DNA from: an uncultured Ruegeria sp. | GTDB taxonomy: Bacteria > Pseudomonadota > Alphaproteobacteria > Rhodobacterales > Rhodobacteraceae | Length of the DNA: 64,000 nt | NCBI RefSeq assembly: GCF_947504215.1 | Contig: NZ_CANNGO010000006.1 | Location: forward strand, 186,001 to 250,000 | Reading direction: 5' to 3' | In this document: positions 5,784 through 17,235 of the stretch, one piece after another | Layout: every line of letters starts with the position of its first letter | Position numbering within the stretch: position 1 is the stretch's first letter | Program-made: the position numbers and the translations under genes | The notes under the pieces: generated by a model | Databases searched by the model: none | Told to the model about the DNA's origin: nothing | Seen by the model: the letters and a program-made list of their open reading frames with translations, nothing else

Positions 5784-6779
5784 TCAGGCGTTCACATCAA
5801 CAACCACACGGCCCTTGACCTGACCTTTCAGAATGTCTGCGCCCAGTTGGGGAAGATCGGACAAAGCGGCCGGGTGAACCATTGCTTCCAGCTTGTCCAT
5901 GGGCAAATCCGTGGCAACCCGCTGCCAGGCCCGGACGCGGTTGTCATAAGGCTGCATAACGCTGTCGATGCCCAGCAGGTTCACCCCTCGCAACAGGAAC
6001 GGAATCACGGTTGCAGGCAATGCCGCGCCACCCGCCAGACCAACCGCGGCAACAGAGGCACCGTATTTCATTTGCCCCAACACACGCGCCAGCATTTCGC
6101 CACCAACCGCATCAACGCAGCCCGCCCAGTTTTCGCTTTCAAGCGGGCGTTTGGTGGTCTCATTCAGCTCATTACGCGGAACAATAGTCGTAGCCCCCAG
6201 GGATCTCAGGTAATCTCCGGTTTCCGGACGGCCAGTCACGGCCGCAACCTCATAGCCCAGATGACCCAGAATGGCCGTCGCAACCGATCCAACGCCACCT
6301 GCGGCACCAGTCACCAGCACGGGTCCGTGCTCCGGTGTCATGCCATGATCTTCCAAGGCCATCACGGCCAGCATCGCGGTGAAACCAGCGGTTCCCACGG
6401 CCATAGCCTGTCGCGTATCCAGGCCATCGGGCAAGGGCACCAGCCAGTCCGCCAATGCGTTGGCTCTCTGAGAATAGCCACCCCAATGCGCCTCGCCCAC
6501 GCGCCAACCGGTCAGAACAACCTTGTCACCCGGCTTGTAGCGATCATCCGAGGACGCCTCGACCTTACCGGCATAATCGATGCCGGGCACATGCGGATAA
6601 GATCGCACCAACCCGCCGCCCTTGGGCGACATGCACAAACCGTCTTTGTAGTTCACAGTGGAATACTCGACGGCCACAGTCACGTCGCCATGTGGCAGCG
6701 CATCCAAAGAAAGCTGCTGGACCGACGCGCTCGCCAGGCCGCTTTCCTCATCCTTTTCCATCACCAATGCATTGAACAT
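5784..6779 (-). CDS. acuI: Acrylyl-CoA reductase (NADPH) AcuI
   Basis: AcuI reduces acryloyl-CoA to propionyl-CoA, which removes a toxic product of DMSP breakdown. It belongs to the zinc-free medium-chain reductases (YhdH/AcuI). Visible features are the substrate segment EYSTVNYKDGL, the segment VPGIDYAGKVEAS, and the nucleotide-binding loop VTGAAGGVGSVATAILGHLG near residue 150. The 331-residue length fits. It lies 102 bases after dmdA, the standard Roseobacter pairing, which strongly supports AcuI over a generic quinone oxidoreductase. The intergenic space carries a GC-rich repeat that could lower read-through from dmdA. Confidence 0.92.
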   Translation of the reverse strand: MFNALVMEKDEESGLASASVQQLSLDALPHGDVTVAVEYSTVNYKDGLCMSPKGGGLVRSYPHVPGIDYAGKVEASSDDRYKPGDKVVLTGWRVGEAHWGGYSQRANALADWLVPLPDGLDTRQAMAVGTAGFTAMLAVMALEDHGMTPEHGPVLVTGAAGGVGSVATAILGHLGYEVAAVTGRPETGDYLRSLGATTIVPRNELNETTKRPLESENWAGCVDAVGGEMLARVLGQMKYGASVAAVGLAGGAALPATVIPFLLRGVNLLGIDSVMQPYDNRVRAWQRVATDLPMDKLEAMVHPAALSDLPQLGADILKGQVKGRVVVDVNA

Positions 6780-6818
6780 CCAAAGCTTCCTTTCGTTGTT
6801 TCGCGACCGGATTCACAC

Positions 6819-6876
6819 TTCATCTGGCCAAAAATATCCCGGGGGAGTTGCGCTGCAACGGGGGCAGAGCCCCAAC
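6819..6876 (-). repeat. Intergenic GC-rich repeat element with two hairpins
   Basis: On the minus strand the element holds a stem GGGGC-TCT-GCCCC, then GTTGC-AGC-GCAAC, then CCCCCGGGATATTTTTGGCC and AGATGAA. I remember this combination (GCCCC, CCCGGGATATTTTTGGCC, AGATGAA) as a frequent intergenic element in Rhodobacterales genomes; only one copy is in this window, so that cannot be checked here. The first hairpin lies directly after the dmdA stop and could act as an attenuator between dmdA and acuI. Confidence 0.45.
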
Positions 6877-6881
6877 ACCCG

Positions 6882-7985
6882 TTAAATCCAGAACCTCTCT
6901 TGCACCGTTGCGCGGCGCATGCCGTCAGGTGTCTCGACCTCCACACCTGTTCCAGCGTCCCAGTGGCTCAACCTCAGCATACCAATCGAAACGTTTGTTT
7001 CGAAATCTGGGGACCAGGCCGAAGAGGTCACCTGCCCCACCCGTTTGCCACTTGCATATACCGGCCAGGGGCCATCACATGGCGGCACCACATCCCCTTC
7101 AATCGCGATCGGCCGAATTTGCTGAACTGGTCCCTCCTTGGCCACGCGCAGCAAGGCGTCCCGTCCGATGCAACCAATCGCCGTATGGGTGTTGCAGAAC
7201 TTGCCTAACCCACATTCATGCGGAGTGTTATCGTCGGTCATATCGTTGCCGTAAGACAACAAGCCACCTTCGATCCGCTCGATCAAATTCGGACATCCGG
7301 CGCGCACTTGCAGGTCCCCACCCGCAGCAAACAGCGCATTCCACAAAGGCATGCCGATATCTCTGCCTTCGACATAGATCTCAAAACCGCCCTGCTTTGA
7401 ATAGCCTGAGCGTGCAACCGCCAGATCCCTGCCTTCGAACTGGAACATGTCAAATTTGAAGAACCGAATGTCCCGCACCCGGTCGCCAAAGATCCGTGCC
7501 ATGAGTTCGTCGGCCTTTGGTCCTTGAATTGCCAGAGGTGAAACGTCCGGCTCATCCACCAGCACGTCCAGACGATACCCGTTGGCCAAGCCCTTGACCC
7601 ACAGCAACAAATCGCTGTCGGCAATAGAAACCCACCAGCGATCTTCGGACAGTTTCACAGCCACCGGATCGTTCAACATGCCGCCGGTTTCATCGACAAT
7701 AGGCACGTAAAAGCACTGGCCCGGCAGCATGCCGCGCAAATCCCGGGGCGTCAGCATCTGCATCAACCGTGCCGCGTCGGGCCCTCGCAGTTCGACCTGA
7801 CGTTCGCAGGAAACATCCCAAACCTGAACATGTTCCTTCAGGTGCCGATAATCAGCCTGCACGCTTTCGAAAACCGTGGGCAATAACATGTGGTTATAAA
7901 CCGTATACGCCTTCACGCCCGCAGCTTCGACGCCATCTGAAAATGGTGTTCGCCGCAAGCGGCGGGACAAGGAAATTTGCGGCAT
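6882..7985 (-). CDS. dmdA: Dimethylsulfoniopropionate demethylase DmdA
   Basis: DmdA transfers a methyl group from DMSP to tetrahydrofolate, giving methylmercaptopropionate; it is a cytoplasmic protein of the GcvT fold. The sequence carries hallmarks I know from Roseobacter DmdA: the N-terminal RRTPFSDGVEAAGVKAYTVYNHMLLPT-type opening (written here in part: VKAYTVYNHMLLP), HVQVWDVSCERQV, GGMLNDPVAVKL, SGYSKQGGFEIYVEG, RAGCPNLIERIEGGLLSYGN, and HECGLGKFCN. At 367 residues it is the usual size. Its start follows the DinB stop without a gap, so it is cotranscribed with the three genes before it and with acuI. Confusion with an ordinary aminomethyltransferase is very unlikely. Confidence 0.95.
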   Translation of the reverse strand: MPQISLSRRLRRTPFSDGVEAAGVKAYTVYNHMLLPTVFESVQADYRHLKEHVQVWDVSCERQVELRGPDAARLMQMLTPRDLRGMLPGQCFYVPIVDETGGMLNDPVAVKLSEDRWWVSIADSDLLLWVKGLANGYRLDVLVDEPDVSPLAIQGPKADELMARIFGDRVRDIRFFKFDMFQFEGRDLAVARSGYSKQGGFEIYVEGRDIGMPLWNALFAAGGDLQVRAGCPNLIERIEGGLLSYGNDMTDDNTPHECGLGKFCNTHTAIGCIGRDALLRVAKEGPVQQIRPIAIEGDVVPPCDGPWPVYASGKRVGQVTSSAWSPDFETNVSIGMLRLSHWDAGTGVEVETPDGMRRATVQERFWI

Positions 7986-8492
7986 TCACACCTCCTGTGG
8001 CATAAAGACAAGATCGCTGACAGGCGCGGCCGAGCCGGTTTCAGTCAGCATTTTGTGGATTTGTCCCCGGTGATGGGTCTGGTGATTGAAGAAATGGATG
8101 ATGCTTCGGGCGTAAGGCACCGTAACATCGTCTTGTTTCGCGGCTGAAAACCACGTGAACTCACCCGTTAAAGAGCCATCTCCCAGGCTCTTGGCCCAGT
8201 CTGTTATGCGCGCGTCCATGCTATTCCGAAGGGGCAGCCATTCGCTCAGATCCGCGCAGATCGCGGTGCTTTCCGGTATTCCGCAATTCGGGCCTTCGCC
8301 CTTGTCAAAGCGCGACATCCAGATCCAGTCGCCCCAGAGCAGGTGGTTTGCCGTTCCCAGGATCGACCCGAAAAAAGCCCCACGTTCGCGCGTCAATTCT
8401 TCTTGGGTCAAACCTTCAAAGAACTCTGCCAACTGATTGCTCTGCCACGTATTATAGCGCGCCATTTCACGGGCATAGGCACCGGTGATCAT
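7986..8492 (-). CDS. DinB family protein
   Basis: This 168-residue protein has the four-helix DinB/YfiT fold, whose members bind a metal by three histidines and often act as thiol-dependent transferases with unknown substrates. The likely ligands are His in ANHLLWGDWIWMSRF and the pair in FNHQTHHRGQIHKML. The start is the ATG sharing one base with the stop of the DUF1326 gene (TGATG). It is translationally coupled to its upstream gene and abuts dmdA. A role in the DMSP operon is not known to me. Because DinB-like proteins use thiol cofactors, a link to methylated sulfur compounds is possible but is only inference. Confidence 0.88.
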   Translation of the reverse strand: MITGAYAREMARYNTWQSNQLAEFFEGLTQEELTRERGAFFGSILGTANHLLWGDWIWMSRFDKGEGPNCGIPESTAICADLSEWLPLRNSMDARITDWAKSLGDGSLTGEFTWFSAAKQDDVTVPYARSIIHFFNHQTHHRGQIHKMLTETGSAAPVSDLVFMPQEV

Positions 8493-9196
8493 CACTTTGG
8501 ACCATGCCAGTCGATGGGGCAAATTTCGGCGGATTTGCCGCCAAAGTCCCAAATGCGGCCATAGTCGCGTACCCGCGACTTGGTTCCACGAGCCACGATA
8601 ATGTCCGGACCCATCCAATATTTTGAGTTCGACACCATGACCGGGTGCTCCGGGTCCTGGCCCGCCAGCATCTCGATCTCGCCTTGAATCTTGCGCCCAA
8701 TGGCGATCCGACGCTTGTTACCGTCTCGCTCAATCTGAACCGGGGCACGTTCGGCTCCGATGATCTCGCTGACCAGCATGGTGAACAGACCCGTGGTTCC
8801 CCCCGCCTGACCACTGAAGATTTGCAGCAGACCATTGTACGCTTTGCCGCTGGCGCGTTCGTCCACATAGGCCGCAACTTTCCACTGCCCCTCACCCATG
8901 CGCCCGGGAATATCGACCAACAGACCGACGTTCAGACCCGACAGATCCTCACCCTCGAAATGGCCTTCATCGATGATCACACCCATCCAGGCGTGGCAAT
9001 GCCCTTCGGTTGGGGGATGCGCGCCTAGAGACACAACACAGGGACAAAACACATCGCAGGAACAGTTCAGGATCAGCTCACCTTTGATGGCCCATTCCGT
9101 CGGGCTCATCTCGCGCCGCTTGGGGTTGGGCATGCGGCTGTCGATCCGCTGACTGATAGGCAACCTGTCGGCTTCTGGTTTTCTGTTTTTGGCCAT
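8492..9196 (-). CDS. DUF1326 domain protein with a Cys-rich metal-binding motif
   Basis: This 234-residue protein matches the DUF1326 family. Near the start of the domain is NCSCDVFCPC with Cys45, Cys47, Cys51 and Cys53, followed by an HCHAWMGVIIDEGHFEG-like segment (here GHCHAW) that adds histidines; together they look like a metal site. The rest is a predicted beta-rich fold with VSEIIGAERAPVQIERDG. ATG 9196 has a perfect GGAGG at 7 bases. It lies 4 bases after DUF2182, a pairing seen in other genomes as far as I recall. It precedes DinB and dmdA in the same operon. Function is unknown; metal delivery is an inference. Confidence 0.85.
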   Translation of the reverse strand: MAKNRKPEADRLPISQRIDSRMPNPKRREMSPTEWAIKGELILNCSCDVFCPCVVSLGAHPPTEGHCHAWMGVIIDEGHFEGEDLSGLNVGLLVDIPGRMGEGQWKVAAYVDERASGKAYNGLLQIFSGQAGGTTGLFTMLVSEIIGAERAPVQIERDGNKRRIAIGRKIQGEIEMLAGQDPEHPVMVSNSKYWMGPDIIVARGTKSRVRDYGRIWDFGGKSAEICPIDWHGPK

Positions 9197-9200
9197 AGGC

Positions 9201-9992
9201 TTATCCTCCGTATACAATGGGATAGATCAGCAGTGCGGCGCCGCCTGCTATTAGTAGAAACCCCATCGGTCGGGTCACGACATGACCGATTTGGGGAAGT
9301 TTTTCCAAAACCATGAACAAGGTCGCCAGCCCCATCCACAACAGGCTCATGACACCGCCGACGAAGCCAAGCGCCATAAAGCCCCAGCAACAGCCGAGAC
9401 AGAAAGCGCCCAATCCAAGACCCATGCGCAGGCCGCCTGTAAAGCCGGGTTTCCAGTGGCCCAGGAAATAGGTCATCGGGGCGTGGCACACGCCATGACA
9501 AACCTCTTTCGCACGGGTGAACTGGAAAGCGCCAACAGCAATCAGCAATCCGCCTGCGATCCAGTTGGATTTAGCTATGCCAAGCATGTCCACAACGCCG
9601 CCAAACAGCAATACAAGCTGAATACCTGTGATCAGGGCGGCAAATCCAACCCACACCACGAAATAGCCGGTCAATACGCCCAACCACCCGCTGCGCGACC
9701 CGTCAGCGCTGCGGATCAGGTCTTCATAGCTGCGCAAGGTGGGTACCAGCGTCGGCAACATCATCGCTGCCATCATGATCGCCCACATCCAGAACAACGG
9801 GCCAAACTCGGCCATGGGCATGTACATGTCCATGCGTGGGTCCATGGCACGCATCGCCTCGCCCATCGGGCCCGGGCGCCCGATCCAATCCAGATCCATG
9901 TCCCGGTTCATCGAGAACATGATCCACCATGACCACAGGATCATGGCGTAAAAGCCCAGCCATAAACCGCTGCGAAGCATTGCGCGACTCAC
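9201..9992 (-). CDS. DUF2182 integral membrane protein, Met/Cys/His-rich
   Basis: This is a 263-residue inner-membrane protein with about six hydrophobic helices, of the DUF2182 family annotated as putative metal-binding. Between the first two helices, residues 41-60 hold seven methionines. Residues 165-170 read CHGVCH and residues 198-202 read CLGCC; such Met, Cys and His groups often bind copper. The GTG at 9992 is preceded by GGGAGG at 5 bases; an ATG at 10010 with a weaker site is the alternative. It is the first gene of the operon leading to dmdA and acuI and lies divergent from the GntR regulator. Metal transport or handling is inferred. Confidence 0.82.
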   Translation of the reverse strand: MSRAMLRSGLWLGFYAMILWSWWIMFSMNRDMDLDWIGRPGPMGEAMRAMDPRMDMYMPMAEFGPLFWMWAIMMAAMMLPTLVPTLRSYEDLIRSADGSRSGWLGVLTGYFVVWVGFAALITGIQLVLLFGGVVDMLGIAKSNWIAGGLLIAVGAFQFTRAKEVCHGVCHAPMTYFLGHWKPGFTGGLRMGLGLGAFCLGCCWGFMALGFVGGVMSLLWMGLATLFMVLEKLPQIGHVVTRPMGFLLIAGGAALLIYPIVYGG

Positions 9993-10022
9993 GTGTCCCT
10001 CCCGACTCATCTCTTGCTTTTC

Positions 10023-10049
10023 AAATGTCAGACTTTTAAATGTCAGACA
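10023..10049. promoter_or_regulatory. Two GntR-type operator-like repeats between the divergent DMSP arms
   Basis: The word AAATGTCAGAC occurs twice (10023-10033 and 10038-10048), 15 bases apart. The second copy continues to TGTCAGACA (10041-10049), a palindrome with one central base, the usual shape of FadR-subfamily GntR operators. The sites lie 30 bases before the gntR start and 31 bases before the DUF2182 start, so binding could control both directions. Confidence 0.6.
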
Positions 10050-10078
10050 AATAAAAATTGATCCACGGTTGCCGAAAC

Positions 10079-10810
10079 ATGAAAATCGACCCTCAAAAAC
10101 CTGCTGACCTGTCTGCCCAGATTGCACAGGCCATCCGTGATGCCATTGTGTCCGGAGAGTTGATCGTTGATGAGCGGTTGCCGTCTGAGACCGAATTGTC
10201 GGATCAGTTTCAGGTCTCGCGCCCTACTGTACGCGAAGCCTTGAAGCGGCTGGCAGCGCAATCATTGATACGGACGCAACGCGGCGCTTCCGGGGGTGCG
10301 TTTGTCAATCGCCTCAGCTTTCAGGACGCGTATTCGCAGCAAATCACAACCTCGACGCTGTTGTTGTCGATGAATGCGGTGACCTTCGACACGGCTTGCG
10401 AGGCGCGGTATGCGCTGGAGCGGGCCTGCGCGCCGATGTCGGCGGAACGACGGACGGCGGATCAACTGGCCACTATGCGCGCCGAGATTTTTCGCCAATC
10501 TCAACCCGGGCTGACGGATGAGGCTTTCTGCGCATCAGATGTGGCCTTTCATCGCGCGTTAGTCGATGGCGCAGGCAACCCGGTTTTGTCCTACCAACTG
10601 GCCGGCGCCGTCGAAGCGATGCAGCCCTTGATGAACATGATCACCTTCACTGCGCGTTCCCGCGAAGAAATCATTCTGTTCCATGAGAAAATCGCTGACG
10701 CGCTTGAGGCGCGGGACGCCGAGACTGTAGACAGTACTTTGGTCGATCTTGAATCCTACACGCGTCTGCTAGCCCATGATGTGGCCGAACGGCGACGCAA
10801 ACCCGCCTGA
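10079..10810 (+). CDS. GntR-family regulator (FadR subfamily), likely controls dmdA
   Basis: The 243-residue protein has an N-terminal winged helix-turn-helix (LPSETELSDQFQVSRPTVRE near residues 40-60) and a C-terminal all-helical FCD ligand domain with the metal-type residues in FCASDVAFHRALVDGAGNP and the late His in ILFHEKIADALEARD. A GntR gene beside dmdA-acuI is known in Roseobacters, where such a regulator responds to DMSP catabolites (family knowledge). Here it is separated from dmdA by three genes but lies divergent from that operon with shared operator-like repeats. The ATG at 10079 gives the normal N terminus. Autoregulation and control of the mtoX arm are inferred. Confidence 0.88.
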   Translation: MKIDPQKPADLSAQIAQAIRDAIVSGELIVDERLPSETELSDQFQVSRPTVREALKRLAAQSLIRTQRGASGGAFVNRLSFQDAYSQQITTSTLLLSMNAVTFDTACEARYALERACAPMSAERRTADQLATMRAEIFRQSQPGLTDEAFCASDVAFHRALVDGAGNPVLSYQLAGAVEAMQPLMNMITFTARSREEIILFHEKIADALEARDAETVDSTLVDLESYTRLLAHDVAERRRKPA

Positions 10811-10941
10811 TCCCACATCAGGCCCGAATACGAGGCAAAGAGACAGGCACAAGGACACACGAGCAGCTAGAAGGATGTCATCCGGCATCAAGACCGGAAC
10901 TCTCAATAAAATTGAATATCAATTGCTTACGGGAGGACGTT

Positions 10942-12342
10942 ATGAACCAAAGACCGGACCCTACCTTTTATCCATCAGCCAAACTGGCAATGGAGGGCCC
11001 GACTGAGACGCTTGCTTTCACGCTGATGCTCAGTCCTGATTTTTCGCAACCTGATGGGCTGGCGGTTGTGAATGTCGATCCGACATCGGACGACTTTGGC
11101 AAAATCGTGCATCAGGTGATCATGCCGGAAAAGGGCGATGAGTTTCACCATTTCGGATGGAATGCCTGTTCGTCTTCCCTGTCGCCGCTTAGTGGCCATG
11201 CCTTCCTCGAGCGTCGGTATTTGATCATTCCGGGCATTCGATCCAGCCGGATCTATATCATCGATGTGAAGAACCCGCTGGAAGCGAAGATTCACAAGAT
11301 TATCGAACCCGAAGAAGTCTTTGCAAAGACAGGGTATTCCCGCCCCCATACGATCCATTGCGGCCCCGAAGGCATCTATGTCAGCACCTTGGGCGGTGCG
11401 GGTGAAGACGGTACAGACGGCCCTCCGGGCATCTTCATCATGGACTGCGAGACCTTCGATATCATCGGACGCTATGAAATCGAACGCGGGGTGCAGGACA
11501 AACACTATGATTTCTGGTGGAATCTGCCGCGCGATTACATGGTCAGTTCCGAATGGGGTCTGCCCCCGCAATTCGAAAACGGGATCGTGGCCGAGGATTT
11601 GCTGTCGAACAAATACGGACACAGCATCCATTTCTGGAACCTGCGCAACCGGACCAACATCCAGACCATTGATTTGGGGGAAAACCACCAGATGGCGCTG
11701 GAAATTCGCCCTGCGCATGATCCGGTCAAGCAATACGGGTTCTGTGGCGTGGTTGTGGACACGACCAACCTGCAAGGCGCGATTTTTACATGGTGGCGCA
11801 ACGACGATGGCACGTTCGAGGCCAAGAAAACCATCACGATCGACCCGCAACCGGCAGACCCGGACGACCTGCCCGAGTTGCTTAAAGGGTTCTCGGCCGT
11901 GCCACCACTGGTCACGGATATCGACCTCAGCCTGGATGACAAATATCTGTACGTTGCCTGCTGGGGCACGGGTGAGATGCACCAATACGATGTTTCGGAC
12001 CCGATGAACCCGAAATTGGCCGGTAAGGTCGAGGTCGGCGGGATTGTCAAAAAGACCAAACACCCGAACGGCCAGGACTTTGGCTATGGTCCCCAAATGG
12101 TTGAAATCAGCCGTGACGGCAAACGTGTCTACTGGACCAATTCGCTGTATTCCACCTGGGATGATCAATTCTATCCCGGTGAACGCGGCGCCGCCATGGT
12201 CAAGGCGGATGTCGGTGAGAACGGAGGCCTGACACTGGATCCGAAATTCTGGGTCGATTTCCCTGCCGGGTATCGCGCCCATCAGATCCGTCTGGAAGGT
12301 GGCGACTGTTCAACGGACAGCTTCTGCTACCCCTCCGTCTAA
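10942..12342 (+). CDS. mtoX: Methanethiol oxidase (selenium-binding protein 56 family)
   Basis: MtoX oxidises methanethiol to formaldehyde, hydrogen sulfide and hydrogen peroxide; bacterial enzymes contain copper. The 466-residue protein shows the SBP56 signature segments: FHHFGWNACSS, ERRYLIIPGIRSSRIYIID, YSRPHTIHCGPEGIY, DFWWNLPRDYMVSSEWG, GHSIHFWNL, VTDIDLSLDDKYLYVACWGT, and GYRAHQIRLEGGDCSTD at the end. The ATG at 10942 has GGGAGG at 5 bases. I see no signal peptide. The usual CxxC after GWNA is here C76-S-S-S79. It lies after the GntR gene in the DMSP region, where methanethiol is produced, which favours this function over a generic selenium-binding protein. Confidence 0.88.
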   Translation: MNQRPDPTFYPSAKLAMEGPTETLAFTLMLSPDFSQPDGLAVVNVDPTSDDFGKIVHQVIMPEKGDEFHHFGWNACSSSLSPLSGHAFLERRYLIIPGIRSSRIYIIDVKNPLEAKIHKIIEPEEVFAKTGYSRPHTIHCGPEGIYVSTLGGAGEDGTDGPPGIFIMDCETFDIIGRYEIERGVQDKHYDFWWNLPRDYMVSSEWGLPPQFENGIVAEDLLSNKYGHSIHFWNLRNRTNIQTIDLGENHQMALEIRPAHDPVKQYGFCGVVVDTTNLQGAIFTWWRNDDGTFEAKKTITIDPQPADPDDLPELLKGFSAVPPLVTDIDLSLDDKYLYVACWGTGEMHQYDVSDPMNPKLAGKVEVGGIVKKTKHPNGQDFGYGPQMVEISRDGKRVYWTNSLYSTWDDQFYPGERGAAMVKADVGENGGLTLDPKFWVDFPAGYRAHQIRLEGGDCSTDSFCYPSV

Positions 12343-12355
12343 TTTGGAGTGGTTG

Positions 12356-13009
12356 ATGACATCAACGGCTGGCCTTTGGCTGGCCGTTGTACTCAGCGGT
12401 GCTTATCACGGGTTGAACCCCGGTATGGGATGGCCGCTGGCGGTATCTTCCGCATTGATGGAGCAACGGCAATCGGCGCTGTGGCGCGCGCTGGCGGCTT
12501 TGGCGGGCGGGCATTTCGTGGCCATGCTGGGAGTGCTCTTACCCTTCGCGCTGATGGCGGTATTGGTCGATTACCAAAAAGAAATCCGGATTGGTGCCGC
12601 GCTAATTGTCATTGCCATGGGTCTCTACATCGCTATTACACGCCGCCATCCGCGGATGTTGTCGCGTATTCCACCCAGCAAGCTGGCCTTGTGGTCTTTT
12701 CTGGTGGCATTGGCGCACGGGGCCGCCCTGATGCTGGTGCCGATCTACCTTGGGCTCTGTGGGCTGGATGAGCTTGATGCGGGCCATCGCGCCGTATCCG
12801 AGATTATGGCCACAAATGGCCTGCTGGTACTGGCGGTTGCGGCAATCCATACAGCCGCGATGATCTTGGGCGGGGGTCTTCTCGCCTATGCCGTTTATCG
12901 CTGGTTGGGCCTGCAGTTTCTATCGCGCACCTGGTTCAATCTCGAACTGATCTGGGCGTTCAGCCTAATTTTGGTTGGTGCGTTGGGGCTCTGGTCTACG
13001 CTCGGGTGA
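12356..13009 (+). CDS. NicO/RcnA-like integral membrane protein
   Basis: A 217-residue protein with about six membrane helices and no soluble domain. Helix 1 contains GAYHGLNPGMGW, close to the HxxxPGH-type metal signature of NicO/RcnA nickel-cobalt transporters, and further histidines lie in helices (GGHFVAM, ALAHGAALM, AIHTAAM). I recognise no exact family and call it by this motif only. The ATG at 12356 has GGAG at 6 bases and lies 13 bases after the mtoX stop, so it is probably cotranscribed with mtoX. A role in metal supply or export for MtoX is inferred; a transporter of a sulfur compound is the alternative. Confidence 0.6.
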   Translation: MTSTAGLWLAVVLSGAYHGLNPGMGWPLAVSSALMEQRQSALWRALAALAGGHFVAMLGVLLPFALMAVLVDYQKEIRIGAALIVIAMGLYIAITRRHPRMLSRIPPSKLALWSFLVALAHGAALMLVPIYLGLCGLDELDAGHRAVSEIMATNGLLVLAVAAIHTAAMILGGGLLAYAVYRWLGLQFLSRTWFNLELIWAFSLILVGALGLWSTLG

Positions 13010-13068
13010 TCTTGCACTTGGAATTCAAACACGCTTTGTCTGCGGCGGACATTTCATGGAGCTTCCAT

Positions 13069-13719
13069 ATGCAAGACAGCACGCGCCCGACAGATATGCT
13101 GCGTCAGGGCAAATCCGCCGATTGGCAGGCCGCAACCACGCACGCCTTCACGCGTGAATTGGCCGACGGCACCCTGCCCGAACATAAGATGCGCTGGTAT
13201 CTGGAGCAGGATTATCAATTCGTGGACGGCTTTGTGCGCCTGCTGGCCAGCGCCATCGCCCATGCCCCGAGTTTGGCCGACAGTGTCCCTGCAGCGCAAT
13301 TTCTGGCGGTCATCACCGGCCCCGAAAATACCTATTTCCTGCGCGCGATGGAGGCCTTGGACACCGAACCCAGCAATGATGCCGCCCCGGCCACCCGCGC
13401 ATTTCAAGACTTGATGGCCGAGGCCGCAACATCAGGTCGATATGAGAACATGCTGGCTGTCCTTGTGGTGGCCGAATGGGTGTATCTGACCTGGGCCAGC
13501 CCGGAAAACCCTCCGAAAGATGAACTTCCTTTCTGGTTCGCCGAATGGATCACGCTACATGCGGGCGACGGGTTCGAGAGCGTTGTGGACTACCTTCGAA
13601 TTCAGCTCGACAAGGTCTGGCCCACGCTGAATACCAGCGCTCAGGCCGAGGTCACACAGCTGTTCCACCGCGCGATCGAGCTTGAGCGTGAATTCTTCGA
13701 CGCCGCATACGCGGCCTGA
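13069..13719 (+). CDS. TenA family protein (TenA-E type)
   Basis: This 216-residue all-helical protein matches TenA/thiaminase II, whose members hydrolyse aminopyrimidines for thiamin salvage. The segment HKMRWYLEQDYQFVDGFVRL near residue 40 and WPTLNTSAQAEVTQLFHRAIELE-type C terminus (seen as LFHRAIELEREFF) fit. Where classical TenA has its catalytic Cys, this protein reads VVAEWVYLTWA with Glu136, so it belongs to the TenA-E subgroup, whose substrates are less certain. The chosen ATG has GGAG at 7 bases; a GTG overlapping the preceding stop is the alternative. It is the third gene of the mtoX arm. Confidence 0.85.
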   Translation: MQDSTRPTDMLRQGKSADWQAATTHAFTRELADGTLPEHKMRWYLEQDYQFVDGFVRLLASAIAHAPSLADSVPAAQFLAVITGPENTYFLRAMEALDTEPSNDAAPATRAFQDLMAEAATSGRYENMLAVLVVAEWVYLTWASPENPPKDELPFWFAEWITLHAGDGFESVVDYLRIQLDKVWPTLNTSAQAEVTQLFHRAIELEREFFDAAYAA

Positions 13720-13737
13720 TACGGGAAAGGTCCGTTT

Positions 13738-14100
13738 ATGGTCACAACACTGAATGTCATCGCCGCCGTACTGACCATCGGTTTTGGATTGTTTGGATTT
13801 CTAGCGCCCGCCTGGACGGCGGCGTCGCTAGATCTAGCACCCACCAATAGTACAATGGGTCTAAGCGAGATGCGCGCCTCGGTCGGTGGGTTGTTTGTCG
13901 TCACGGGCATAGCTGTCCTGTGGCTGAACGCTCCGATGGCCTATGCCATGCTTGGTGTGGTCTATGCCGGGGCGGCGTTGGGGCGGTTCGTGTCTGTGTT
14001 TGTCGACCATCCCCCCTTGGCCAAGGCCGTAACATTTGGTGGAATCGAACTGGTCCTGGCTGTTTGGCTGATTGCAGCGAACATCAATAAAACACCGTAA
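13738..14100 (+). CDS. DUF4345 family small membrane protein
   Basis: A 120-residue protein with four hydrophobic helices. The pattern fits DUF4345: a first helix IAAVLTIGFGLFGFLAPAWT, then SEMRASVGGLFVVTGIAVLW with the conserved Arg and paired Gly, then a GRFVSVFVD segment before the last helix. The function is unknown. The ATG has AAAGG at 7 bases and lies 18 bases after the tenA-like gene, so it probably ends the mtoX transcription unit. No terminator is visible between it and the tmRNA promoter. Confidence 0.75.
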   Translation: MVTTLNVIAAVLTIGFGLFGFLAPAWTAASLDLAPTNSTMGLSEMRASVGGLFVVTGIAVLWLNAPMAYAMLGVVYAGAALGRFVSVFVDHPPLAKAVTFGGIELVLAVWLIAANINKTP

Positions 14101-15040: not shown

Positions 15041-15169
15041 TCAGGCGCAAACCAATCTTGACCCCCAAGGCGCTTGCGCGGTAGCAAGTGCCATGGGGTA
15101 AGATTGCGAACGCCCCGTGAGGCGACAGCCCAAGTTTCGCATGTATCCGACAGTATAAGGAAACATGCC

Positions 15170-15985
15170 ATGGCATCGCCAAACTCAATTGCCCCCAGAC
15201 AACTGCTGCGTTTGATCGGCACGCCGCAAGCACCAGTGCTGGTCGATATTTGTATCGATGAAGATTTCGAAGCCGATCCGTTTCTGATCCCAGGGTCGAT
15301 CCGGCACCCGGCAACCGACATACCTGGGCTGGTTCGGCTGCTTTCGGGGCGCCCGAGTGTCATCATTTGTCAAAAAGGCAAAAAGCTGAGTCAGGGAATG
15401 GTCTCGTGGCTGCGCAGTGAAGGCCATTCAGCCGAATATCTAGAAGGCGGGACGTATGCGTGGCGCGACCTGCCAGAGGCGTTGCGCATCCCTGTTGCCC
15501 CCCTACCCGCACTGGCGGGCGGCGGAACAGTCTGGGTGACCCGTCATCGGCCAAAGATCGATCGGATTGCGTGCCCTTGGCTGATCCGGCGGTTCATTGA
15601 TCCCAACGCCCGTTTCTTGTTCGTTGCGCCGGACGAGGTTGAAAGCGTAGCTGAGAAATTTGATGCCATCCCCTTTGACGTCGAAAACACCTTTTGGACC
15701 CATCGTGGCGACAAATGTACGTTTGATACATTGCTGGAGGAATTCAGCCTCTCGTCTGCCGCTTTGGACCGACTTGCACGTGTGATCAGGGCTGCGGACA
15801 CCAACAGACATGATCTGGCGCCCGAAGCGGCTGGATTGCTCGCCGTTTCCGTTGGACTGTCACGCCAATTCCGTGACGATCACGAAAACCTCGACGCGGG
15901 CATGAACCTGTACGATGCGCTGTATCGTTGGGCGCGCGATGGGTTTGATGAAGGTCACGACTGGCCCACAGGTCGCAAGCCATGA
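15170..15985 (+). CDS. Rhodanese-ChrB fusion protein (chromate resistance)
   Basis: The 271-residue protein joins an N-terminal rhodanese-like domain (about residues 1-110, with Cys67 in IICQKGKKLSQGMVSWL) to a C-terminal ChrB domain (about 125-271, with WVTRHRPKIDRIACPWLIRR and FWTHRGDKCTFDTLLEEF). ChrB proteins accompany the chromate exporter ChrA and are thought to sense or reduce chromate. The ATG at 15170 has AAGG upstream. It overlaps chrA by four bases (ATGA), so the two are coupled. The rhodanese domain suggests a sulfur or thiol-linked function, which is inferred. Confidence 0.85.
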   Translation: MASPNSIAPRQLLRLIGTPQAPVLVDICIDEDFEADPFLIPGSIRHPATDIPGLVRLLSGRPSVIICQKGKKLSQGMVSWLRSEGHSAEYLEGGTYAWRDLPEALRIPVAPLPALAGGGTVWVTRHRPKIDRIACPWLIRRFIDPNARFLFVAPDEVESVAEKFDAIPFDVENTFWTHRGDKCTFDTLLEEFSLSSAALDRLARVIRAADTNRHDLAPEAAGLLAVSVGLSRQFRDDHENLDAGMNLYDALYRWARDGFDEGHDWPTGRKP

Positions 15986-17235
15986 CGCCAACATTGAAAG
16001 AACTTATCCAAGTGTTTGGGCGCATCGGTCTGCTGTCTTTTGGCGGGCCAGCGGCGCAAATCTCGCTTATGCATCAAGAGCTTGTCGAACGCCGACCCTG
16101 GCTGGACGAACAATCATATCTGCGGGCCTTGTCGCTGTGCATGTTGTTGCCGGGCCCCGAGGCTATGCAGCTGGCGACCTATGCGGGTTGGAAAATGCGC
16201 GGTGTGAGCGGTGGCCTGATTGCCGGCAGTCTCTTTGTCCTGCCCGGGGCCATCGTGATCACCGTCTTGGTCTCGCTTTATGCAGCATTTGGCGATCTTC
16301 CACCTGTTCAGTCCGCATTCCTGGGGATCAAAGCGACAGTCATCGTGATTGTCCTACAGGCCCTACGCAACCTGTCACGCAAGGCATTGACAGATGTCGA
16401 GCATCGGATGATTGCAGGGCTGGGATTTATTGCGATCTTTCTGCTGAACCTCCCCTTCCCGCTTATCATTCTTGTTGCTGCAGTGTGGGGGTATGTGTCC
16501 TTCAAGGGCACGGTTCCCGTGATCGAAACACCTGCAACCCCAAGCTTGGCGCGACCCGTGCGGACAACCGCCATTTGGTTGACGCTGTGGCTGGGCCCAT
16601 TGTTTTTGCTCAGCATCACCGGGCAACAGCTGCTCAGTGATTTGGGCTGGTTCTTTGCACGGTTGGCTGTTGTAACCTTTGGCGGAGCCTATGCGGTTCT
16701 CGCCTACATGACGCAAACTGTGGTCGATCAGTATCACTGGATCAGCACCAATCAGATGATCGACGCGCTTGGGCTGGCGGAAACCACACCCGGCCCCCTT
16801 ATTCTGGTCACCCAATTTGTGGCGATGCTGACCGGACAGATGAATGGCGGTCTCTCGCTGGGGCTCGCAGCCGGAGCCGTAGCGCTTTGGGCGACTTTTG
16901 TTCCCTGTTTCCTTTGGATTTTTCTGGCGGCCCCATATCTTGACCGCTTGGCCACCCGCCCCCGGCTGTCTGCAGCATTGCATGGAATCACCGCGGCCGT
17001 CGTGGGCGTGATTCTCAACCTTTCATTGTGGTTTGCCCTGAACGTTCTGTTCGGATCCGTTCCGCGAATGTCATGGGGCCCGGTGGCACTTCCTGTCCCA
17101 GATGTCGGCAGCCTGGACTTTACGGCACTGGCCTTGACGCTTGTCGCCGGTGTGTTGATTTTCCGAATGAAACTCGGGATGGCGACTGTGTTGACGCTGA
17201 TGGCAGCTGCTGGATTGGCTGCACATTTTATCTGA
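15982..17235 (+). CDS. chrA: Chromate efflux transporter ChrA
   Basis: ChrA is an inner-membrane exporter of the CHR superfamily, driven by the proton gradient. The 417-residue protein has the expected two homologous halves. Each begins with a family motif: FGRIGLLSFGGPAAQISLMH with ALSLCMLLPGPEAMQLATYA in the first, and FARLAVVTFGGAYAVLAYM with ALGLAETTPGPLILVTQFVA in the second. Ten or more hydrophobic helices are present. Some CHR relatives move sulfate or unknown anions, so the substrate is inferred from the ChrB partner with which it overlaps. Confidence 0.9.
   Translation: MTPTLKELIQVFGRIGLLSFGGPAAQISLMHQELVERRPWLDEQSYLRALSLCMLLPGPEAMQLATYAGWKMRGVSGGLIAGSLFVLPGAIVITVLVSLYAAFGDLPPVQSAFLGIKATVIVIVLQALRNLSRKALTDVEHRMIAGLGFIAIFLLNLPFPLIILVAAVWGYVSFKGTVPVIETPATPSLARPVRTTAIWLTLWLGPLFLLSITGQQLLSDLGWFFARLAVVTFGGAYAVLAYMTQTVVDQYHWISTNQMIDALGLAETTPGPLILVTQFVAMLTGQMNGGLSLGLAAGAVALWATFVPCFLWIFLAAPYLDRLATRPRLSAALHGITAAVVGVILNLSLWFALNVLFGSVPRMSWGPVALPVPDVGSLDFTALALTLVAGVLIFRMKLGMATVLTLMAAAGLAAHFI

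Follow-up and report, generated by a model that had tools for sequence, protein, structure and literature searches.

A divergent GntR locus of Ruegeria with DMSP demethylation and methanethiol oxidase genes: a candidate shared operator and a membrane partner of the oxidase

A 64,000-nucleotide stretch from an uncultured Ruegeria sp. (contig NZ_CANNGO010000006.1, positions 186,001 to 250,000; hereafter the window, with positions counted from its first letter) carries, between 5784 and 14100, genes for the demethylation of dimethylsulfoniopropionate (DMSP) and a gene for a methanethiol oxidase (MTO) on either side of the start of one regulator gene, gntR. Two divergent transcription units flank a gap of 68 bp, measured between gene starts that are our choice among the open frames. 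The leftward unit runs DUF2182, DUF1326, DinB, dmdA and acuI, ending at 5784, and the rightward unit gntR, mtoX, a gene for a membrane protein lacking a family name, tenA and DUF4345. Profile matches bear out the gene content, positions and families given in a preliminary description of this DNA, and the features are as follows.

5784..6779, minus strand: acuI, acrylyl-coenzyme A (CoA) reductase (TIGR02823, 447.8 bits, cut-off 297)
6882..7985, minus strand: dmdA, DMSP demethylase (NF009133, 696 bits, above the cut-off of 410)
7986..8492, minus strand: DinB-family protein (PF05163)
8492..9109, minus strand: DUF1326 protein (PF07040, 180 bits; the start may lie at 9109 or as far out as 9217)
9201..10010, minus strand: DUF2182/PpoB2-family membrane protein (PF09948, 'Copper chaperone', 201.5 bits, above the cut-off of 28.7)
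10021..10054, divergent promoter region: predicted double GntR-type operator of two 19-bp sites, 10021-10039 and 10036-10054, from a position weight matrix (PWM)
10079..10810, plus strand: gntR, FCD-type GntR regulator (PF00392, 67 bits, and PF07729, 68.5 bits, both domains recognised)
10942..12342, plus strand: mtoX, SBP56 methanethiol oxidase of 'cluster 1' (PF05694, 580 bits; cluster-1 motifs)
about 12356..13009, plus strand: polytopic membrane protein, earlier called 'NicO-like', a constant neighbour of SBP56 class A (see below)
13006..13719, plus strand: TenA/THI-4-family protein (PF03070)
13738..14100, plus strand: DUF4345 protein (PF14248)

In the leftward unit the DinB start codon and the DUF1326 stop codon overlap by one base (TGATG), and DinB and dmdA abut. 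The acuI product reaches the TIGR02823 subfamily level and falls below the AcuI equivalog NF051456 (424.1 bits against a cut-off of 440).

The predicted double operator

The two sites of the predicted operator score 31.0 and 33.1 against the PWM, with the next best position in the 64-kb window at 6.6, and the pattern AWWTGTCWGACAWWT has a single site in the 4.5-Mb genome, which is this operator. The matrix was built from gntR-divergent regions, 38 of 39 of which contain a site with at most two mismatches to TTGTCTGACAA and 29 of 39 another copy at a distance of 15 bp, often a weaker one (the latter counted from the listed sites). Only 6 of the 39 intergenic regions gave a site with a strict FadR-type pattern (TNGTN3-4ACNA), and a TGTCNGACA-type pattern was used in its place. 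As an 11-bp pattern with two mismatches allowed is at chance level in the window alone (14 matches, 13.75 expected), the claim of an operator rests on the 19-bp PWM and the comparative data.

The comparative data come in part from loci where mtoX lies apart from gntR. At 19 such loci, which had no part in building the matrix, 10 PWM hits of at least 12 bits occur in 253,815 positions and all 10 stand upstream of mtoX. In a further set of 52 unlinked named loci, which shares one locus with the first, 16 hits at 15 loci fall upstream of mtoX (21,890 bp), and the remainder of 904,813 positions contains 2; one hundred shuffled matrices gave a mean of 0.21 upstream hits, and one of them reached 5 loci.

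We also surveyed an order-level sample of 196 genomes, whose listed rows show only members of the window's own family and which overlaps in part with the named loci (for example at L152 and L227). The gene maps were drawn with a simple open-frame picker, which overlooks some genes (the window's own dmdA among them); the counts were made by profile or tblastn searches. A relative of GntR (E <= 1e-55) is present in 127 of the 196 genomes. The exact operator pattern occurs in 106, comprising 103 of the 127 with a GntR relative and 3 of the 69 lacking one, while the reversed pattern, used as a control, was found in one genome only. Classing was confined to the 90 exact-pattern sites listed with coordinates: 49 lie at gntR, 10 at mtoX and 31 elsewhere, 20 of the latter in a single genus, g36. 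The 11 elsewhere sites outside g36 include five by acyl-CoA synthetase genes (three family-matched and two grouped with them), two by an acyl-CoA dehydrogenase-like gene, one by a crotonase gene, one by a gene of no assigned family (G026), one in G025, and one by an OppA-like gene in a genome lacking a GntR relative.

Linkage of the demethylation and oxidation genes takes more than one form. The mtoX gene and its membrane partner follow gntR in Ruegeria and Tateyamaria, follow acuI in Pacificoceanicola and Primorskyibacter sedentarius, and come directly after dmdA in G165, a genome with neither the DUF2182-DUF1326 pair nor a GntR relative. Hence, the module that the preliminary description saw as linking DMSP demethylation to methanethiol oxidation is supported by these several dmdA-mtoX linkages and by the shared operator, which occurs in cis and also in some of the unlinked genomes.

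We propose, with a probability of roughly two in three, that the two units constitute a DMSP-demethylation/methanethiol-oxidation regulon under GntR. The linkage, the co-occurrence, and the conservation and placement of the operator are read directly from the sequences; on these grounds control of both units by GntR, in cis as well as in trans, is probable, and the sharing of the operator between them appears to be new here. The first unit would be the operon DUF2182-DUF1326-DinB-dmdA-acuI, and the second mtoX with its membrane partner, two genes that lie just downstream of gntR in Ruegeria and Tateyamaria. The GntR/FCD regulator would bind the conserved double operator and thereby control the first unit together with its own transcript, and in part of the genomes with mtoX elsewhere the same operator precedes mtoX. 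The regulator would be a repressor released by a catabolite of DMSP or acrylate, and the methanethiol derived from DmdA would then be removed by MtoX. With less confidence, we suggest that the membrane partner matures or supplies MtoX, with copper or some other cofactor, taking the place that SCO1/MauG have for the Hyphomicrobium-type enzyme.

Several observations weigh against a regulon of this simple form. At the 12-bit level no operator was found upstream of mtoX in 9 of the 19 and 37 of the 52 unlinked loci, so other regulators must act there. Among the 66 genomes with an mtoX of the window's class, 7 lack dmdA and 7 lack a GntR relative. In genus g36 (G058, G065, G080 and G154), and also in L293-L303, the GntR is more distant (56-58% identity) and each genome has 5 to 11 exact operator-type sites. 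Several of the sites stand near trkA-like genes (recognised by eye) and other seemingly unrelated genes, which argues against a narrow regulon in g36.

The co-location could also be happenstance peculiar to Ruegeria, in which mtoX and its partner, with no functional tie, came to lie between gntR and a tenA-DUF4345-chrB-chrA-sspB-fumC stretch that is older. In favor of this, dmdA and mtoX lie within 10 kb of each other in only 3 of the 26 sampled genera having both genes, and in genomes of the same genus that lack mtoX at this place (L047-L049) gntR directly adjoins DUF4345, which by this comparison is an older neighbor of gntR. The same probably holds for TenA, which sits beside gntR without mtoX in L040 and L065 and would thus fall outside the mtoX pair. 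Given the operator shared in part of the unlinked genomes and the other linkage arrangements, we regard mere happenstance as very improbable. Beyond the locus, positions 15074-17235 of the window hold genes for a ChrB-like protein (with a rhodanese part) and a chromate transporter, which many relatives show along with sspB and fumC.

The oxidase and its membrane partner

The window's SBP56 protein carries GWNACS, HTIHC and GGDCS, which are the motifs of the assayed 'cluster 1' MTOs of Rhodobacteraceae (the motif test being HTV/IHC and GGDCS/T), and has no hydrophobic N-terminal segment by hydropathy. The label of a Hyphomicrobium-type MtoX had to be dropped, with NF052453 giving 108.4 bits against a cut-off of 650. 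A family scan covering acuI through DUF4345 and the flanking frames found neither SCO1/senC nor mauG. The product probably oxidizes methanethiol and may depend on copper.

By Pfam score the SBP56 proteins of the order-level sample fall into class A, which includes the window's (549-597 bits; 67 places in 66 genomes), class B (676-692 bits; 12 places) and class C (127-150 bits; 5 places), after dropping fragments in G050 and G133 and a weak second match in G031. In a phylum-wide sample, class-A-like was instead defined as at least 53% identity to the window protein, because four loci there score between A and B.

Class-A mtoX is directly followed by the membrane protein at 67 of 67 places. By full-length match the latter is present in 67 of the 196 genomes (a fragment in G050 was dropped) and stands alone just once (G162). 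Among the best 80 of 558 confirmed relatives, a selection that favors close relatives, mtoX lies just upstream in 80 of 80 named loci; the best-matching named relative, from Ruegeria sp. EL01 (L174), has 97% identity, and the 80 extend to Mesorhizobium, Stappia, Labrenzia and a metagenome-assembled genome of the Granulosicoccaceae. The phylum-wide sample has the membrane protein at 18 of 18 class-A-like loci, 13 of them outside the window's family, and lacks it at 3 class-B and 4 class-C loci, with 3 weak matches left unclassed. It further adjoins SBP56 in Azospirillum, Sinorhizobium, Cupriavidus and Nonomuraea and, as recognized by eye from motifs, in Deinococcus plasmid records; on an Agrobacterium plasmid it adjoins only a 99-residue SBP56 remnant. 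The partnership with MtoX that the preliminary description had supposed is thus supported, and its constancy for class-A SBP56 proteins is, as far as these comparisons go, probably a new observation.

The label 'NicO-like' finds no backing in any family model. Three members of the family gave no NicO match at E values up to 10, and the window protein, which matches no Pfam family, has its best hit at E 0.15, to another family. Simple hydropathy predicts five membrane segments, and H19, H54, H99, H122 and H166 (numbered from 12353) are invariant in 43 aligned sequences.

From this pattern the membrane protein, rather than the DUF2182-DUF1326 pair, emerges as the better candidate for MtoX maturation, with a putative role in handling copper. 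It could also be conceived as a transporter of a substrate or product such as sulfane sulfur, formaldehyde or methanethiol. The five segments and the absence of a recognized metal-chaperone domain are in keeping with transport, as are the production of sulfane sulfur by MTOs of the cluster-1 group and the working of a recombinant cluster-1 enzyme in E. coli (both according to the available text of PMC10936201). Against these, the five invariant histidines are at least equally consistent with a metal or redox role, and the other SBP56 classes have SCO1/MauG-like or 2Fe-2S neighbors. Transport is accordingly a real possibility that falls somewhat short of even odds.

Two further points count against the reading proposed above. 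The SBP56 proteins of Rubrobacter and Haloterrigena (41-44% identity) have no membrane partner adjoining them. Furthermore, RlMTO from R. lacuscaerulensis degraded methanethiol when expressed in E. coli, and the available text of PMC10936201 mentions no partner, so activity in that setting does not strictly depend on one. RlMTO is probably the ortholog of the window's MtoX, since R. lacuscaerulensis ITI-1157 (L184) has this locus and our search found one SBP56 gene in it, as against the two SBP-family genes that PMC7157515, in its accessible part, reports.

The other classes keep different company. Class-B SBP56 in Phaeobacter inhibens is adjoined by 2Fe-2S and CoA-binding proteins, and in three of four class-C loci an SCO1- or MauG-like sequence (recognized by eye) adjoins, matching the arrangement published for R. 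pomeroyi (PMC5739008, as far as available). On a P. inhibens plasmid (L339, 3140-9347) the class-B gene forms a run with genes for 2Fe-2S, CoA-binding, rhodanese, metallo-beta-lactamase-fold, enoyl-CoA hydratase and acyl-CoA synthetase proteins, beside an IclR-type regulator. More speculatively, and as a tentative idea that we hold with well under even confidence, each SBP56 class might have its own partner set, the histidine-bearing membrane protein being a dedicated copper- or cofactor-loading maturation factor for SELENBP1-like MTOs, occurring in Proteobacteria and, as single records, in Actinomycetota and Deinococcota. In marine Rhodobacterales one GntR operator would then wire mtoX and this partner to the DMSP demethylation operon, which would hold a second, separate copper-handling pair.

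The DUF2182-DUF1326 pair

The residue motifs noted earlier in the two DUF proteins were confirmed. DUF2182 has seven methionines in MGEAMRAMDPRMDMYMPMAE together with CHGVCH and CLGCC, and DUF1326 has four cysteines within the nine residues of CSCDVFCPC. In 76 aligned DUF2182 sequences C214, C243, C246, C247, M118, M123 and E275 are invariant and C210 is present in 75 (numbering of the open reading frame 10127-9201); DUF1326 has five cysteines that all 75 aligned sequences share. A comparison with solved structures returned no convincing relative of either protein. A copper link for DUF2182 in general holds up, in that PF09948 is Pfam's PpoB2 'Copper chaperone' and PpoB2 acts in copper transfer (PMC2855505, as far as available).

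DUF2182 is present in 123 of the 196 genomes and DUF1326 in the identical 123, with DUF1326 within 3 kb at 137 of 139 DUF2182 places; two weak DUF2182 matches (G027:C5 and the second of G052) and a DUF1326 fragment in G067 were dropped. At a threshold of 385 bits (the weaker matches listed, at most 305 bits, being dropped), 113 genomes have dmdA. In 101 of them, from 39 of 44 dmdA genera, the pair is no more than 6 kb away from dmdA, which leaves 12 exceptions. Among 18 pair loci fetched from 16 dmdA-less genomes, 12 have acuI, and 6 a gntR relative, within 5 kb. Because the pair adjoins dmdA in most dmdA genomes, and often acuI elsewhere, it is seen to travel with the dmdA-acuI operon, an assignment that, resting on gene neighborhoods, we believe to be new. 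Outside the order, DUF2182 adjoins DUF1326 at 18 of 20 fetched loci, amid varied neighbors.

The preliminary description had instead supposed that DUF2182-DUF1326, along with the 'NicO-like' protein, loads or guards copper for MtoX. The PpoB2 kinship of DUF2182 and the conserved cysteines of both proteins are compatible with this, as is their presence together with mtoX in Ruegeria and Tateyamaria. Across all 196 genomes the pair is correlated with class-A mtoX (59 of 66 genomes with it, 64 of 130 without; Fisher p 1e-8), and the correlation persists in the small set of dmdA-less genomes (5 of 7 versus 12 of 76; p = 0.003), which points toward service of the pair to MtoX. These Fisher values are not independent tests, because the genomes are related, and genus counts are given for that reason. 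Within dmdA genomes, though, the pair and class-A mtoX are independent (the pair is in 54 of 59 genomes that have class A and in 52 of the 54 others; p = 0.44), such that the co-occurrence check proposed earlier yields a strong association with dmdA and none with mtoX once dmdA is held present. Moreover, 42 of the 101 genomes with a dmdA-adjacent pair have no SBP56 of any class, only 7 genomes of the sample have the pair and class-A mtoX no more than 10 kb apart, and the 20 pair loci outside the order show no SBP56 and a single weak dmdA-like match (L127, 32% identity). As MtoX also has a constant partner of its own, service of the pair to MtoX is unlikely. With less confidence than for the regulon itself, we suggest that the pair handles copper, or another soft metal, for the demethylation/acrylate side.

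The operon shows local variation in several relatives. In L184 (R. lacuscaerulensis), L177 and L199, DUF2182 and DUF1326 are 37-47% and 64% identical to the window's and gntR, mtoX and acuI 87-93%; the pair seems to have been swapped in place. In L175, L176, L179, L181 and L199, dmdA is 60-63% identical, acuI 89-92% and gntR 87-89%, as if a distant dmdA type had been substituted inside the operon. Six loci (L011, L012, L015, L021, L024 and L028) have a second DUF1326-DUF2182 pair, in reversed gene order and away from dmdA, followed in L011 by a gene for a GYD-domain protein.

Comparison with known systems

How much of the sea's sulfur enters the atmosphere depends on whether DMSP is demethylated or cleaved. 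With a GntR whose sharp operator is also present at MTO genes, the regulation, and the routing of carbon and sulfur, become directly testable, and a constant partner of SELENBP1-like enzymes offers a handle on the assembly of a copper-dependent enzyme family.

Cluster-1 MTO activity (PMC10936201), induction of dmdA-acuI by DMSP and acrylate (R. pomeroyi; PMC3338564) and PpoB2 (PMC2855505) are already published. In a literature search with most subscription journals outside it, no paper named DUF2182 or DUF1326, a single one turned up for the family identifiers COG5486, COG5588, PF09948 and PF07040, none named a DmdR together with dmdA, and the terms dmdA, acuI, GntR and operon came together only in a salinity study. 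We compare the window with each of these systems as far as the respective texts were available.

In R. pomeroyi, as in the window, acuI directly follows dmdA; the available part of PMC3338564 names neither an operator nor an upstream DUF2182-DUF1326 pair, and neither it nor that of PMC7157515 names a regulator for the operon. PpoB2 of Marinomonas mediterranea is, like DUF2182, a PF09948 membrane protein, and takes part in passing copper to a tyrosinase (PMC2855505). It pairs with that tyrosinase, whereas the window's DUF2182 keeps company with DUF1326 and the DMSP operon. RdMTO and RlMTO share the GWNACS, HTIHC and GGDCS motifs with the window's MtoX, and the portion of PMC10936201 available has no mention of a membrane partner, GntR or a link to the dmdA operon.

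Another system close to that of the window is the mtoX-SCO1(senC)-mauG operon of Hyphomicrobium and R. pomeroyi, which in R. pomeroyi is induced on DMSP, methylmercaptopropionate (MMPA) and methanethiol (PMC5739008, in its available part). The window's enzyme differs from this type in its NF052453 score (108 bits against 650), in lacking an N-terminal hydrophobic segment, in having no SCO1/MauG among the genes scanned nearby and a different partner in their stead, and in its link to a GntR rather than an IclR regulator. What the two systems have in common is an SBP56-type MTO with dedicated, linked partners.

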